A DNA stretch of 64,000 bases from Williamsia sp. CHRR-6 (GTDB lineage Bacteria; Actinomycetota; Actinomycetes; Mycobacteriales; Mycobacteriaceae), in the NCBI RefSeq assembly GCF_018474015.1, contig NZ_JAHCSG010000002.1:186001-250000 (forward strand), given 5' to 3'. Position numbers and translations under genes: made by a program. The notes below the pieces were generated by a model. That model searched no databases. It was not told where the DNA came from and was given only the letters and a program-made list of their open reading frames with translations. Within the stretch, counting starts at the first letter, position 1, and each line of letters opens with the position of its first letter. This document shows, in pieces, positions 4,857 through 10,383 of the stretch.

Positions 4857-4904
4857 GCGACCACTGTCGCACGGACGGTCGTCGCGTGTGTAGGCGCGAT
4901 TCAT

Positions 4905-5684
4905 CGCCCGGGAACGACGGTGATCCGCAACGCCAGCTCGAACTACATGGTCCAAGACCTCTGTTGCTTTCTGCGACAACTCGGGGTGCGGATCGAGGGT
5001 GTCGGTACCACCACTCTGACGGTGCATGGGCTGGCCACGATCGATGCCGATGTCGACTACCAGCCCTCGGAGGACCCCATCGAGGCGATGAGCCTGCTGA
5101 CCGCAGGCGTGGTCACCCACTCGACTCTCACCGTCACCCGAATTCCCATGGAGTTCATGGAGATCGAGCTGGCCATCCTCGAGCAGATGGGGCTGCAGAT
5201 GGACGTCTCGACCGAGTATCGCTCGGCCAACGGTGTCACCCGGCTGGCCGACGTCACGGTGCACCCGGGTCCACTTGCTGCTCCGTTCGACAAGATCCAC
5301 CCGATGCCGTTTCCCGGGTTGAACATAGACAACCTCCCGTTCTTTGCCCTGATCGCCGCGATTGCCCAGGGCCGCACCCTGATCCATGACTGGGTGTACG
5401 AGAATCGGGCGATCTACCTGGTGGAACTCACCCGTCTGGGTGCGGCAGTGCAGCTACTCGATCCGCATCGGGTCTCCATCGAGGGCCCCACGTCGTGGTC
5501 GCCCGCGGAGGTGATGTGTCCGCCTGCGCTACGTCCGGCCGTGGTGATCCTGCTGGCGATGTTGGCCACGAAAGGAACATCGGTGTTGCGCAACATCTAT
5601 GTGATCAACCGGGGTCACCAACAGCTCGCCGAACGCCTCGGGGAGATCGGTGCCACCGTCGAGACCTTTCACGACCAGACGTGA
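4905..5684 (+). pseudogene. 5'-truncated MurA-like enolpyruvyl transferase
   Basis: The frame encodes about 259 residues homologous to the C-terminal 60% of UDP-N-acetylglucosamine 1-carboxyvinyltransferase: TTVIRNASSNYMVQDLC, the PIEAMSLLTAGVV segment, the PMPFPGLNIDN loop and YENRAIYLVELTRLGA. The first roughly 160 residues, including the catalytic loop that normally carries Cys or Asp, are missing. The frame upstream runs through the antisense of the hydrolase gene, so the alignment begins abruptly at about 4905. A short product from GTG 4920 or ATG 4947 is possible but would lack half of the active site. Probably a paralogous fragment left after a deletion, not the essential murA. Confidence 0.75.
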
Positions 5685-5837
5685 GTCGTTTTCCGCGTCG
5701 CCACAGCGGATCTGCGCTAGTCTCCGGATTCCTACGTTGTATCGGCAAGTCGGGGGTGTCGACACGCGTGCGCCACGCGGTGGCGTCTTCGGGTGTCGTG
5801 GTCGTGCGTGTGGGGGCACCCCGGAAAGGCGCATTGC

Positions 5838-7667
5838 ATGTCTGGTCCCTCTCGTCGGCTCCTCGTTGGAGCCATTGGTCTTCTCACCCCGCTGGTCGTC
5901 GCGGTGCTCCCGGCCCCGGCCACTGCCGCACCGGCATCCACCGAACCCGACACGATGAAGTTGGCAGGCACGTTGTCCAAGCAGAAGGTGGTGTGGGGCG
6001 AGTGTTTTGACATCCCGCCCGGAACGCCTCTGCCGCCCAGCCTGGCCAACATCAAGTGCGCCACGGTGCAGGTGCCCCGGGACTGGAAGAAGCCGACCAA
6101 CGGCAAGATCTGGAACATCAAGATCTCGTACGCGTTCAACATCAGCACAGACAACCCGCGCCACAAGGGCACGATCTTCACCAACCCCGGCGGTCCGGGG
6201 AGTGGGGGAATCGACCTGCCGATCTCACTGCAGGAGGGGACCCCAGATCTCAAGCCCTACTACAACTATCTGGGCTTTGATCCGCGCGGGGTGGGGCAGT
6301 CCGATCCCGCCACGTGCCGGGTGACCACCACCGAGCCCGGCTCGTTGAAGGAGCTGTACCGGATCGTGGCACCGATCTGTGCGGCCAACGAGGACGTCAA
6401 GACCATCAACTCCCAGCAGACGGCCTACGACATGGACTTCATCCGCGGCCTGCTCAAGGAGCCGAAGATGGACTACATCGGGTACTCCTACGGGACGTGG
6501 CTGGGCACCACCTACGCAAGTCTGTTCCCCAGCAAGGTCAACCACATGTACCTCGATTCGGCGGCCGACGTGACCAAGCCGACGCTGCAGAGCACCCAGG
6601 AGTTCCAGTACCTGGCCCGCGATCGTTCGTTCGCGCTGCATCTGGCCAACTACATCTCGCGTCACGACGACCTCTACAAGCTCGGCACCATTCGCGAGGA
6701 CATCGTCAAGCGGTACTTCGCCGCTACCGCCAAGCTCGATCGAGGCGTGGTGAAGACGATGTGGGCTTTCGACAACGGGCTCGCCGGGCTGGCCAACAAC
6801 AAGTTCTTTCAGTCTGCGGCAAACGTTTTCACCACGTTGGTGCAGATGGGCGAGCAGCCGATTGCCGCGCCTTCGGCCACCGGGGGGACCGCTGCGGCGC
6901 TGATCAGTTCCTTGGATGCGGTGAAGGTCGACCCCGACGCACCGGCGGTGGCCAAGGAAACCGCCGCCACGGTGAGTGCGGCCGCGGCACCATTGGTGGG
7001 GCAGAATCCCGACGAGCCGCAGACATTCGACTTCACCGATTCGCAGAACTTCATCCGCTGCGGAGACGGGCAATGGACCCAGGGCACCGCCTACTACGAG
7101 TCGCTGGCCGCCCGGCTGACGACCACCGCCCCCTTCGACACCCAGGTCGACCTGGTGGAGAATCCGCCGTTCTGTGCGTTCTTCCCCACTTCGAACCTCA
7201 ATCCTGTTGCCCCGAAGAACTTTCCCAAGGTGCTCTTCGGGCAGTCGGAGTTCGATGCGCAGGTGGGTTACGAGTCGGGTCTGGCCAGTGTCAAGGGCCT
7301 ACCGGGCGCAAAACTCCTCGCCATCGACAACGAGGGCACGCATGGGTTGTTCCCTTATGGAACCGAGTGTTTCGACCGTCCGATCATCGACTTCTTCCTC
7401 ACCGGCAAGCTGCCGAGCAAGAAGGTGACGGTGTGTCAGGCCAAGCCACTGCCGGGCGAGACCACCACCTACGAATCGGGTAACCAGCTCGATGCGCGGG
7501 GACGGGGCTCGGTGACCCTGATCCCGCGTACCCCGCGGCAAGAGCGGGCGGTGGCCGACCTGCACAAGCAGCTCGATCGGGTCACCTTCGACAACACCGT
7601 GGCACCGCAGCTTCGGGAGTTGTACGGCGACAGGGGCGTCGAGATCGCGCGCAAGAACGCCGGGTAG
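5838..7667 (+). CDS. Secreted S33-family tripeptidyl aminopeptidase-like hydrolase, copy 2
   Basis: A 609-residue exported alpha/beta hydrolase. The N-terminus (SRRLLVGAIGLLTPLVVAVLPAPATA) is a Sec-type signal peptide ending near residue 31. Catalytic features are TNPGGPGS, GYSYG with the nucleophile at Ser217, and a C-terminal TAP-like region with EGTHGLFPYGTECFD. The ATG at 5838 is used because the signal peptide starts there and AAAGG precedes it; the frame extends 15 codons upstream without such support. It is about 80% or more identical to copy 1 and has a 355-bp block (7153-7507) identical in DNA. It converges on the P450 gene 110 bp away. Confidence 0.9.
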   Translation: MSGPSRRLLVGAIGLLTPLVVAVLPAPATAAPASTEPDTMKLAGTLSKQKVVWGECFDIPPGTPLPPSLANIKCATVQVPRDWKKPTNGKIWNIKISYAFNISTDNPRHKGTIFTNPGGPGSGGIDLPISLQEGTPDLKPYYNYLGFDPRGVGQSDPATCRVTTTEPGSLKELYRIVAPICAANEDVKTINSQQTAYDMDFIRGLLKEPKMDYIGYSYGTWLGTTYASLFPSKVNHMYLDSAADVTKPTLQSTQEFQYLARDRSFALHLANYISRHDDLYKLGTIREDIVKRYFAATAKLDRGVVKTMWAFDNGLAGLANNKFFQSAANVFTTLVQMGEQPIAAPSATGGTAAALISSLDAVKVDPDAPAVAKETAATVSAAAAPLVGQNPDEPQTFDFTDSQNFIRCGDGQWTQGTAYYESLAARLTTTAPFDTQVDLVENPPFCAFFPTSNLNPVAPKNFPKVLFGQSEFDAQVGYESGLASVKGLPGAKLLAIDNEGTHGLFPYGTECFDRPIIDFFLTGKLPSKKVTVCQAKPLPGETTTYESGNQLDARGRGSVTLIPRTPRQERAVADLHKQLDRVTFDNTVAPQLRELYGDRGVEIARKNAG

Positions 7668-7777: not shown

Positions 7778-8821
7778 TCAGGTTCGGGTCACCTCGACCC
7801 GGGTGACGCCGAGCATCCCGGCGAGCGGCACGGAAGCGCTGTGCTGTTCCTCGGCAATGCGCAGACCTTGTTCACGCACCACGTCGAGGATGCGGGAAGC
7901 CAAGGGCAACACCATGTGTCGACCCCAGCATCGTTCTGAGAGGTGCCCGAAGGGCAGATAGCCCGGATGTGTGTCGACGTCGAGATCGTTCCAGCGTTGC
8001 GGCTGCCACTGGTCGGGATCGGCGAAGTTCTGGCTGCTGCGATGGCTGAGGAACGGCAGCAGCAAGACGTCGTCGTCAGATCTGATGCTGGGATCGACGG
8101 CGGTGAACCCGGCTGAGGCCAGTCGCAGGATGTTCCATGAAACCGGGAGCAGCCGTAGGGATTCGGCGATGATGTGCGAGTTCGGCACCGAGTCGTCGAA
8201 CGGCGATCCCAACCACACGGCGTTGGTGACCACGGCGGCCACAGTGAAACAGACCGGTGCGGCCAGGCGACGGTAGAGGCCTAGCGCGTGGCGTCGCCCC
8301 GCATACGTGGAGCCGTGGGTGGAGACGGCTGTGGCCAGCGCGGACAGTTCGCGGTCACCGCTGGGCAGCCGCGGTGTGGCCGCGGCCGCGATGGTCAGCC
8401 AGGTGAGCACCGGTGTGCGTTCGAGCTCGCGGTTGACCATCACGGTCATCCGCTGCGGGTCGTGGCCGAACACGGTGTTGCGGAGGTGCTCGTGCACGAC
8501 GTCTGGCCAGCGGCCGGTGAGATCGACCCCGTCGATCGGGGTGTCGAGCGCGGCACGAACGTCTTTGCCCACCTCCCGCATGAGGAAAGTGGCTTCGTGC
8601 CGAGGGATGGATCGGCCGCGCAGCGGTCGAAAGGTGGGCCGCTCGATGTCGGTGGCCGTGCGCGAGGTGAGGATGGCGTCCATCAGCGTCGGATCGGTGA
8701 CACCGACCGTCGCCGGTTCCAAGCGGAACACCGGGTCGTCACGGTGGTCGGCGAGGAGTCGTCGGAGGCGAGCAGGCAGTTGTGTCGTTCGCGCGCGGTG
8801 GACACCGGTCATGTCCGACAT
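7778..8821 (-). CDS. Atropopeptide-type cytochrome P450 (RiPP cross-linking enzyme)
   Basis: A 347-residue P450, shorter than the usual 400. The K-helix ExxR is E220-S-L-R223 and the haem-binding segment is FGHLSERCWG with the thiolate Cys298; the canonical second glycine (FGxGxxxCxG) is Leu here. The I-helix region (AAVVTNAVW) lacks the usual acid/alcohol pair. Such divergence fits peptide-modifying P450s. The ATG at 8821 has AGGAG six to seven bases upstream; a 67-codon longer frame is rejected because it runs through the precursor gene and hairpin out of frame. The gene lies 107 bp downstream of a precursor ending AWYIWY, so it probably forms aromatic C-C and C-N bonds in that core, as TrpB does for tryptorubin. 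Ferredoxin partners are not encoded nearby. Confidence 0.88.
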   Translation of the reverse strand: MSDMTGVHRARTTQLPARLRRLLADHRDDPVFRLEPATVGVTDPTLMDAILTSRTATDIERPTFRPLRGRSIPRHEATFLMREVGKDVRAALDTPIDGVDLTGRWPDVVHEHLRNTVFGHDPQRMTVMVNRELERTPVLTWLTIAAAATPRLPSGDRELSALATAVSTHGSTYAGRRHALGLYRRLAAPVCFTVAAVVTNAVWLGSPFDDSVPNSHIIAESLRLLPVSWNILRLASAGFTAVDPSIRSDDDVLLLPFLSHRSSQNFADPDQWQPQRWNDLDVDTHPGYLPFGHLSERCWGRHMVLPLASRILDVVREQGLRIAEEQHSASVPLAGMLGVTRVEVTRT

Positions 8822-8890
8822 GCGATCTCCTGCACTGTGCGTGTTCGGGTCAGATGCGCCGGTGGCGCTGAGGGTTGTTCTACCGAAACA

Positions 8891-8919
8891 CCCTTGGCCC
8901 CAAATGGTGGGGCCAAGGG
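8891..8919 (-). terminator. Strong hairpin between precursor and P450
   Basis: A perfect 11-bp stem (CCCTTGGCCCC / GGGGCCAAGGG) with a 7-base loop lies 9 bp after the precursor stop and 70 bp before the P450 start. There is no U-run, so it may be an attenuator or mRNA stabiliser rather than a full terminator. It would give more precursor than enzyme transcript, a common RiPP arrangement. Confidence 0.7.
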
Positions 8920-8928
8920 TGCACGCGG

Positions 8929-9009
8929 TCAGTACCAGATGTACCAGGCGTAGGCCTTCAGGCTCTTCTCGCGACGAACGGCGTTCTTGATGCCGGCAAA
9001 CACCTTCAT
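8929..9009 (-). CDS. Atropopeptide (tryptorubin-type) RiPP precursor peptide
   Basis: A 26-residue ORF that starts MKVFAGIKNAV, has a basic middle (RREKSLK) and ends KAYAWYIWY followed by TGA. The start has an excellent ribosome binding site, GAGGAG, six bases upstream. The C-terminal hexapeptide AWYIWY is, to my knowledge, the same sequence as the core of tryptorubin A, the founding atropopeptide, in which one P450 cross-links Trp and Tyr side chains. The lysine-rich leader would be removed by a protease not identified here. It lies directly upstream of the P450 on the same strand. The peptide is too short for standard gene callers and could be missed. Confidence 0.9.
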   Translation of the reverse strand: MKVFAGIKNAVRREKSLKAYAWYIWY

Positions 9010-9099
9010 GGGAACTCCTCAATCTCTGTCGAGTGGCCGAACCCGGTTGTCGTGAGGGGACTTACGTGTGGGGGGTAGGCAACCGGGGCCGTGTCGCCA

Positions 9100-9136
9100 C
9101 TGTTCACCGGGGGGCGAACAGGTTGTACTTTAGTAC
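9100..9136. promoter_or_regulatory. Two adjacent palindromes upstream of the RiPP precursor
   Basis: CTGTTC (9100-9105) and GAACAG (9116-9121) form a perfect inverted repeat with a 10-bp spacer. Three bases further is GTACT-TT-AGTAC (9125-9136). Both lie 91-127 bp upstream of the precursor ATG in a gap of 267 bp (9010-9276) with no other gene, and could bind a regulator. No convincing -35/-10 pair was identified. Confidence 0.4.
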
Positions 9137-9276
9137 CGCTAAGAACCTGGCGCGACCGGAAACATGATTGTGGCCGAACAGATCTGGATGATCTGCGTGG
9201 TTTGTCTGATCTGATCGAATTGCCCTGGTGCGCAACGCACGAGCGCGGCCGACCGCGTAATGCAGGTCGGTCGCGG

Positions 9277-10383
9277 TCAGCAGCTCGTGGCCGGGCTGGT
9301 CAGGCCGAGCATCGAGTACTTGCCCTGGTAGCTCGGCGAGGGTGAGGTATGGAAGAACCACGGCACATAGACCTCGTCCTCGAGCTTCCAGGTGGTGGAA
9401 CCGACGACCTGGGTGTAGGTCGAGGTGTACACCGGGTCGCCCACCTCGAGGTTGGTCAGGCACCCGTATCCGGCCACTGAACTACCCGGCACCACGTTGT
9501 ATTGGGTGCCGCCGACGAACGGGTCCATCGCCCACTCGGCGACCTCGTGCGAAAACGCCTGCAGGTTGGTGTTGTTGGCTTCGATGTTGGCGTAGCCGAA
9601 CGTGTAGTTGCCGCGCTGATCGTGGTACCCGCCGAAACCGCTTCCCTGGAAGGTGCCGTCGTCGCCGTAGACGTTCGGCGCGACGAACATCGTCAGCCCG
9701 GTGGCCGAGTAGGCCCCGCTGATGCCGTTGGTGGTGACGGCATTTTGGATGGTGGTGTCGAGGACCCCGTACTCGCTGCCGACAGTGCTCCACTGCCCGT
9801 AGGGAACCGTCACCGTCACAGGCGCTTTCACCACCGGGTTGAGCAGCAGGTGATAGTTCGAGCCCACCTTGCCCGCGTTGGCCCGGACGTAGGCGTCGAG
9901 GTACTGGGTGACCTCGCCGGCGGGCTTGGTGGCGGTGTTGGTGAACATGGGGCTGCCCGCGGTTGCGGTGGCTGCTGCGCTGGCGTTGATGGTGGTCGAC
10001 GTGCCGTTGGCGTTCTGCAGCACGAAGTTCATCGGCACCAGGTTGACGGTGATGGTGGTGGTGGCGTTGGCGGAGGGGCTACCGCCGACAAAGCGTGCGG
10101 GGTAGGACTTTCCGGTGTTGGCGTCGATGTTGGTCGTCGAGTAGGACGCCACGGTGGAGGTGAGCGCAGCCGGGGCCGATCGGGCTGACTTGCGCGACTG
10201 GATCTTCTGCGTGCCGTCGATCAGATGAAGCTTGATGTGTTTTGCGTCGGTGGGACCGGCGGTGGGGCCGGTGCTGCCCTCGGGCGGGGCGGCAGCCGCC
10301 ATCCCGGACCCGATGACGCTCAGTACGGCACCGACGGCAGCGGCGATGCTCAGGACGCGAACACTGGTGGACCTGTTGGTCAT
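9277..10383 (-). CDS. Secreted zincin-like protein with HEVAE motif
   Basis: A 368-residue exported protein. A Sec signal peptide (MTNRSTSVRVLSIAAAVGAV) ends at about residue 36 with AAAAP. The most informative segment is AFSHEVAEWAMDPF near residue 280; HExxE/H followed by a conserved D is a pattern seen in secreted actinobacterial metalloprotease-like proteins, but the third ligand is not certain. The rest is rich in Thr, Asn and Gly with beta-type segments and two or three Cys near the C-terminus. Start has AGAGG upstream. It is on the same strand as, and immediately upstream of, the RiPP locus. A role in precursor processing is possible but not shown. Confidence 0.7.
   Translation of the reverse strand: MTNRSTSVRVLSIAAAVGAVLSVIGSGMAAAAPPEGSTGPTAGPTDAKHIKLHLIDGTQKIQSRKSARSAPAALTSTVASYSTTNIDANTGKSYPARFVGGSPSANATTTITVNLVPMNFVLQNANGTSTTINASAAATATAGSPMFTNTATKPAGEVTQYLDAYVRANAGKVGSNYHLLLNPVVKAPVTVTVPYGQWSTVGSEYGVLDTTIQNAVTTNGISGAYSATGLTMFVAPNVYGDDGTFQGSGFGGYHDQRGNYTFGYANIEANNTNLQAFSHEVAEWAMDPFVGGTQYNVVPGSSVAGYGCLTNLEVGDPVYTSTYTQVVGSTTWKLEDEVYVPWFFHTSPSPSYQGKYSMLGLTSPATSC

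Follow-up and report, generated by a model that had tools for sequence, protein, structure and literature searches.

Atropopeptides (atropitides) are ribosomally synthesized and post-translationally modified peptides (RiPPs), and their published definition combines a class-specific cytochrome P450 (P450), a KSLK motif in the leader and a Trp residue at core position 2 (PMC11450843). Tryptorubin A has been described as a hexapeptide from a two-gene cluster, and more than 650 clusters have been predicted for the family (PMC11450843). An atropopeptide rule is included in antiSMASH 8 (PMC12230676); such loci are already covered by NCBIfam and antiSMASH 8, and the family is well described. In the present study, we analysed a 64,000-nucleotide (nt) stretch of the Williamsia sp. 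CHRR-6 genome (contig NZ_JAHCSG010000002.1, positions 186,001 to 250,000), hereafter called the window, in which an earlier sequence-only reading had proposed a two-gene tryptorubin-type locus. The results bore out this proposal: a precursor gene matching a curated tryptorubin-family model was followed by a P450 gene whose kept relatives all adjoin precursors, and the three published defining features were found together. We therefore consider it very probable that the locus is a minimal two-gene tryptorubin-type atropopeptide RiPP locus. It shares with tryptorubin A the two-gene cluster, the KSLK leader, the class P450 and the core, AWYIWY, which we take to be the core of tryptorubin A itself.

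The precursor gene encodes the product MKVFAGIKNAVRREKSLKAYAWYIWY, which consists of the leader MKVFAGIKNAVRREKSLKAY and the C-terminal core AWYIWY, with KSLK at residues 15-18 and Trp at core position 2. The core also fits the xWxxWx pattern of bitryptides (pattern from PMC11450843). The NCBIfam model NF038372 (tryptorubin_fam) matched the precursor over positions 1-26 of 26, with 49.3 bits (curated cut-off 33) and an E value of 4.4e-13. This was the sole NF038372 match at E 0.01 in the 4.0-Mb host genome, and the model matched none of 14 control genomes. When the window was searched in six frames, the precursor held both the sole KSLK string and the sole W-aromatic-x-W-x-stop string. Together, these results ruled out a chance open reading frame (ORF), and the 26-codon frame with its GAGGAG site was present on the minus strand where the sequence-only reading had placed it. 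That reading had also held that the precursor is too short for ordinary gene finding, which needs correction, since the curated NCBI model covers it. The GC content of the precursor was 55.6%, which is below that of the P450 gene and of the window.

The P450 carries the haem ligand motif FGHLSERCWGRH and an ExxR motif that reads ESLR, and its ATG at 8821 lies 107 nt after the precursor stop. Pfam PF00067 matched the C-terminal part of the protein with 40.2 bits (cut-off 22.8). Relatives were collected by scanning contigs with six patterns derived from the window P450. Of the 102 relatives confirmed in this way, we kept the best 80 for the comparison, which leaves out the 22 weaker ones and any matching none of the six patterns. 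The resulting set was rich in Streptomyces and included no close kin of the host. According to the record titles, the hosts were Streptomyces, Kitasatospora, Streptacidiphilus, Amycolatopsis, Kutzneria, a Pseudonocardiaceae member, Xanthomonas and Luteibacter, and the 80 kept relatives were 48-59% identical to the window P450.

A precursor was found upstream of the P450 in all 80 kept relatives, its stop codon lying 65-234 nt ahead of the point where the P450 match begins. In 75 of the 80 loci, the upstream ORF combined an atropopeptide tail with a KSLK-type motif of the published kind, and the remaining five carried near variants (TSLK, KNLK, RSFK and, twice, QSLK). AWYIWY was the commonest core among the 75 strict-motif loci, occurring in 21; within these 21, the core was flanked by AY, as in the window, in three and by SY in six. 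In one of the 75 loci (L044), a second, spurious string was observed besides the precursor. The haem motif FGHxxERCWGRH was found in 80 of 81 rows of the alignment, the exception being a row cut at an in-frame stop, although this count is biased upward because the search patterns included ERCWGRHM. FGHLSERCWG, as the motif reads in the window P450, had been called unusual by the sequence-only reading; it is instead the family norm. In the Xanthomonas cucurbitae locus (L068), the P450 match from 4001 met an in-frame stop after 108 codons, and the precursor read through normally.

Among other described systems, the best NCBIfam match of the window P450 was ApyO of the aminopyruvatides, which is likewise a cross-linking P450 of a RiPP pathway. 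The match reached 60.1 bits against an equivalog cut-off of 525, and the ApyO system differs in its precursor, ApyA, which is described as belonging to another family and carrying a YLY motif. A PDB sequence search with the P450 returned two chains at 1e-5 or better, both titled 'Cytochrome P450'. P450 homologues (E 1e-20) were present in 18 of 72,556 plasmid records, 16 from Streptomyces and two from Embleya, and all of these were less than 60% identical to the window P450.

The window P450 was the most divergent of the sample compared. Its nearest relative was 57.7% identical, compared with 67.6% for the nearest neighbour of the next-lowest row; part of this divergence reflects the absence of close kin of the host from the sample. 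We defined 112 near-invariant columns, conserved at 97% or more in the other 79 rows. The window P450 kept 97 of them and showed 15 departures, one of which was a gap, whereas the next rows showed seven and five departures and the median was zero. Seven departures fell between the ExxR and haem motifs, namely P238A, E239G, R246S, D263S, P264S, W267F and F273W (residue numbers are those counted from Met plus one, as one R codon before the ATG was included). The departures were in register with the relatives, which led us to reject a frameshifted or broken P450; together with the 97 kept columns, this argues for a working protein.

In two trees, the end branch of the window P450 was 1.34 or 1.5, against medians of 0.083 and 0.075. 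The window P450 fell into a set of 24 rows that also holds enzymes from Kutzneria, Amycolatopsis, Streptacidiphilus and Streptomyces (support 100/99), and its position inside this set was unsure. The highest alignment identities, 55.8-57.7%, were to the enzymes of Kutzneria sp. 744 (L006) and of the Streptomyces/Streptacidiphilus loci L002, L005 and L008, the hosts of which belong to Pseudonocardiaceae and Streptomycetaceae. The Kutzneria precursor carries TSLK and the tail DNAWALWY. This precursor (L006:3840-3920, TSLKDNAWALWY) has an unusual motif and tail that fall outside the published motif list. In comparison with the 80 kept relatives, the window P450 was about 58-59% identical at best, and no more than 10 of 20 leader residues were identical to those of the seven relatives compared. 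The divergence would be explained by an unsampled lineage, and equally by acquisition from a donor of the Pseudonocardiaceae or Streptomyces type with rapid change thereafter. The GC content of the P450 gene (66.8%) is close to that of the window (66.9%) and bears no mark of recent arrival.

The sequence-only reading had described a hairpin between the two genes, and a perfect stem was indeed found there. It begins 7 nt beyond the stop codon of the precursor gene, and TTTC follows it. The fold of the intergenic region had a z-score of -4.24, and none of 200 shuffled sequences was as stable. Perfect stems of at least 10 bp occurred in 16 of the 81 intergenic regions of the set, window included, a count given without a chance expectation, and in 14 of these 16 the stem started 7-25 nt after the precursor stop. 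No sequence common to the 16 stem spacers was seen by eye beyond close relatives. We therefore rejected the hairpin as a general conserved element of the family. In the window, it may act as a transcript stabiliser or attenuator, that is, as a device for unequal expression of the precursor and the P450.

The host genome (3,998,357 bases, 14 contigs) has a listed completeness of 99.96% and a listed contamination of 0%. The locus lies on a 640-kb contig, which, together with the host-like GC content of the P450 gene and the listed absence of contamination, argues against a contaminant. NF038372 matched one of eight genomes in the genus and one of 201 in the family, in both cases the host itself. 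In the order it matched two of 397 genomes and in a phylum sample two of 396, host included in both. In a separate search of the family with the P450 as query (1e-20, at most five candidates scored per genome), the host was again the only positive genome, one of 401, and this family placement sets the locus apart from the rest of the tryptorubin and atropopeptide family. The second match in the order (G888), which carries a GWI core and clusters with Amycolatopsis, shows that the locus was already present in the host's order. The wider host range anticipated by the sequence-only reading thus holds at the level of the family and fails at that of the order. As for the suggestion of a mycolic-acid host, the window encodes a protein with a PE-PPE domain as well as a LysX-type fusion, and these, along with the genome sizes found in the host's family, suggest such an organism.

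Among the seven other genomes of the genus, the secreted-protein gene downstream of the locus was found only in G044 (69% identity), and neither a P450 nor a precursor was seen by eye around it. Gordonia, Williamsia, Rhodococcus and Nocardia are not mentioned in the main texts of PMC11450843 and PMC12352619, and the supplement of PMC11450843 may list the locus; 'Mycobacteri' occurs once in each of these main texts, in connection with a P450 used as reference and with the title of a cited work. The locus may have entered the host lineage by horizontal transfer.

In published homologues, the leader docks on the P450, the KSLK motif threads the core according to an AlphaFold model, the core is cross-linked and host peptidases release it (PMC11450843). 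By analogy, the window precursor would be translated, its KSLK leader would dock on the dedicated P450 and AWYIWY would be threaded into the active site, where aryl-aryl, aryl-N and aryl-backbone bonds would be installed. The modified core would then be freed by a general cellular peptidase, and the hairpin would probably keep the precursor mRNA in excess over the P450 mRNA. The lack of a protease in the cluster, noted by the sequence-only reading, is usual for minimal atropopeptide clusters (PMC11450843). The most likely product would be tryptorubin A or its des-Ala form. The calculated [M+H]+ values are 901.424 for the linear core, 897.393 after loss of four hydrogens and 826.356 for the des-Ala form after the same loss. 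Varsorubin B1, an analogue with three bonds, lost four protons (PMC11450843), so a loss of four rather than six hydrogens is expected here, and the loss of about 2 Da per cross-link expected earlier was mistaken.

Some points weigh against the assignment as a functional tryptorubin-type locus. The P450 is an outlier, with its 15 departures and long end branch, and altered or lost activity is possible; no sigma-70 promoter match was found at 8780-9300; and the pattern bias described above over-estimates motif conservation, although it has no direct effect on the precursor count. A chance ORF beside an unrelated P450 might be suspected from the short frame and the weak Pfam score (40 bits), but the full-length curated match and the pairing in all 80 kept relatives refute it, and we give it a negligible probability. 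A different explanation is compatible with a true atropopeptide locus: the divergent P450 may set another bond pattern on the same AWYIWY core, with fewer or other cross-links, and yield a tryptorubin isomer or a simpler monocycle. The divergence of the enzyme speaks for this, as does the report that one P450 makes the varsorubins, which carry non-overlapping bond patterns on one core (PMC11450843). The haem and ExxR motifs and most near-invariant columns are nevertheless retained, and the divergence measure partly reflects unsampled close kin, so that we regard another pattern as a possibility well short of an even chance. Somewhat more doubtful still is the bolder proposal of a fast-evolving P450 branch in mycolic-acid actinobacteria, retuned at near-invariant residues and cross-linking AWYIWY in an undescribed pattern.

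It is unlikely, in our judgement, that the locus is decaying, that is, an acquired cluster under relaxed selection whose frames are open but whose enzyme is inactive or unexpressed. The very long end branch, the isolation of the locus in the genus and family samples and an apparently truncated enolpyruvyl-transferase gene nearby are consistent with decay, and the in-frame stop in the Xanthomonas P450 shows that such loci do decay. Against this, neither frame contains an internal stop, the starts and Shine-Dalgarno sites of both genes are intact, the precursor retains the full leader motif and core, and the P450 retains its catalytic motifs along with the 97 columns. The neighbouring secreted TAP-like hydrolase and its paralogue might be a functional part of the cluster and trim the peptide, for example by removing the N-terminal Ala. 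The hydrolase gene converges on the P450 gene with a gap of 110 nt and is likewise restricted, being found at 1e-100 in one of eight genus genomes (none of the seven genus mates) and in two of 201 family genomes including the host. However, it lies on the opposite strand in a duplication block of its own, with nicotinamide mononucleotide (NMN)-transporter and AAA-domain genes between the copies; homologues in the neighbourhoods of the relatives were weak and confined to three of 80; and in published clusters the cleavage is ascribed to host peptidases (PMC11450843). The hydrolase is therefore probably not part of the cluster, and a trimming role for the pair, which these results do not support, appears improbable.

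The preferred reading, a tryptorubin-type locus, leaves the definition of the family unchanged, and the new points are modest: a rare host family and an outlier enzyme. The locus places a tryptorubin-type core in an actinobacterial family where such loci are very rare (one of 401 genomes sampled), and in it the sample's most divergent P450 stands beside the commonest core. With the substrate unchanged and 15 departures in the enzyme, the locus amounts to a natural experiment that bears on which residues determine the bond pattern. The coordinates of the features are listed in Table 1.

Table 1. Features of the atropopeptide locus and its neighbour (positions refer to the window)
Feature	Position	Strand	Basis
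Atropopeptide precursor gene, 26 aa	8929..9009	-	ORF and NCBIfam NF038372 match
Precursor ribosome binding site GAGGAG	9015..9020	-	Sequence; 6-11 nt upstream of ATG
Hairpin, 14-bp perfect stem, 5-nt loop	8889..8921	-	Stem search and folding
P450 ribosome binding site AGGAG	8827..8831	-	Sequence
Atropopeptide-type cytochrome P450, 347 aa	7778..8821	-	Pfam PF00067, relatives, conserved columns
Secreted TAP-like alpha/beta hydrolase (peptidase-type)	5880..7667 (or 5793..7667)	+	PF00561, PF08386

Upstream of the precursor, an inverted repeat, GTACT-TT-AGTAC, was observed at 9125-9136, about 120 nt from the start, and might be an operator. A search for a shared upstream operator counted 8-mers over the upstream regions of 78 loci; no word occurred in more than 12 rows (maximum 7 in mononucleotide shuffles), and none of the top 15 words was seen by eye in the upstream region of the window. 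Further away, positions 4896-5639 hold what appears to be the remnant of an enolpyruvyl-transferase gene (MurA/EPSP synthase type). The Pfam match was confined to the C-terminal part of the profile (176-417 of 417), and this ORF overlaps an alpha/beta hydrolase frame on the other strand. The paralogue of the TAP-like hydrolase, 82% identical, runs into the window from just ahead of its first position and ends at 1629; the genes bracketed by the pair encode a PnuC-like (NMN transporter) protein and an AAA-domain (PnuC/NadR-like) protein. A third paralogue of this hydrolase (46%) was found elsewhere in the genome.
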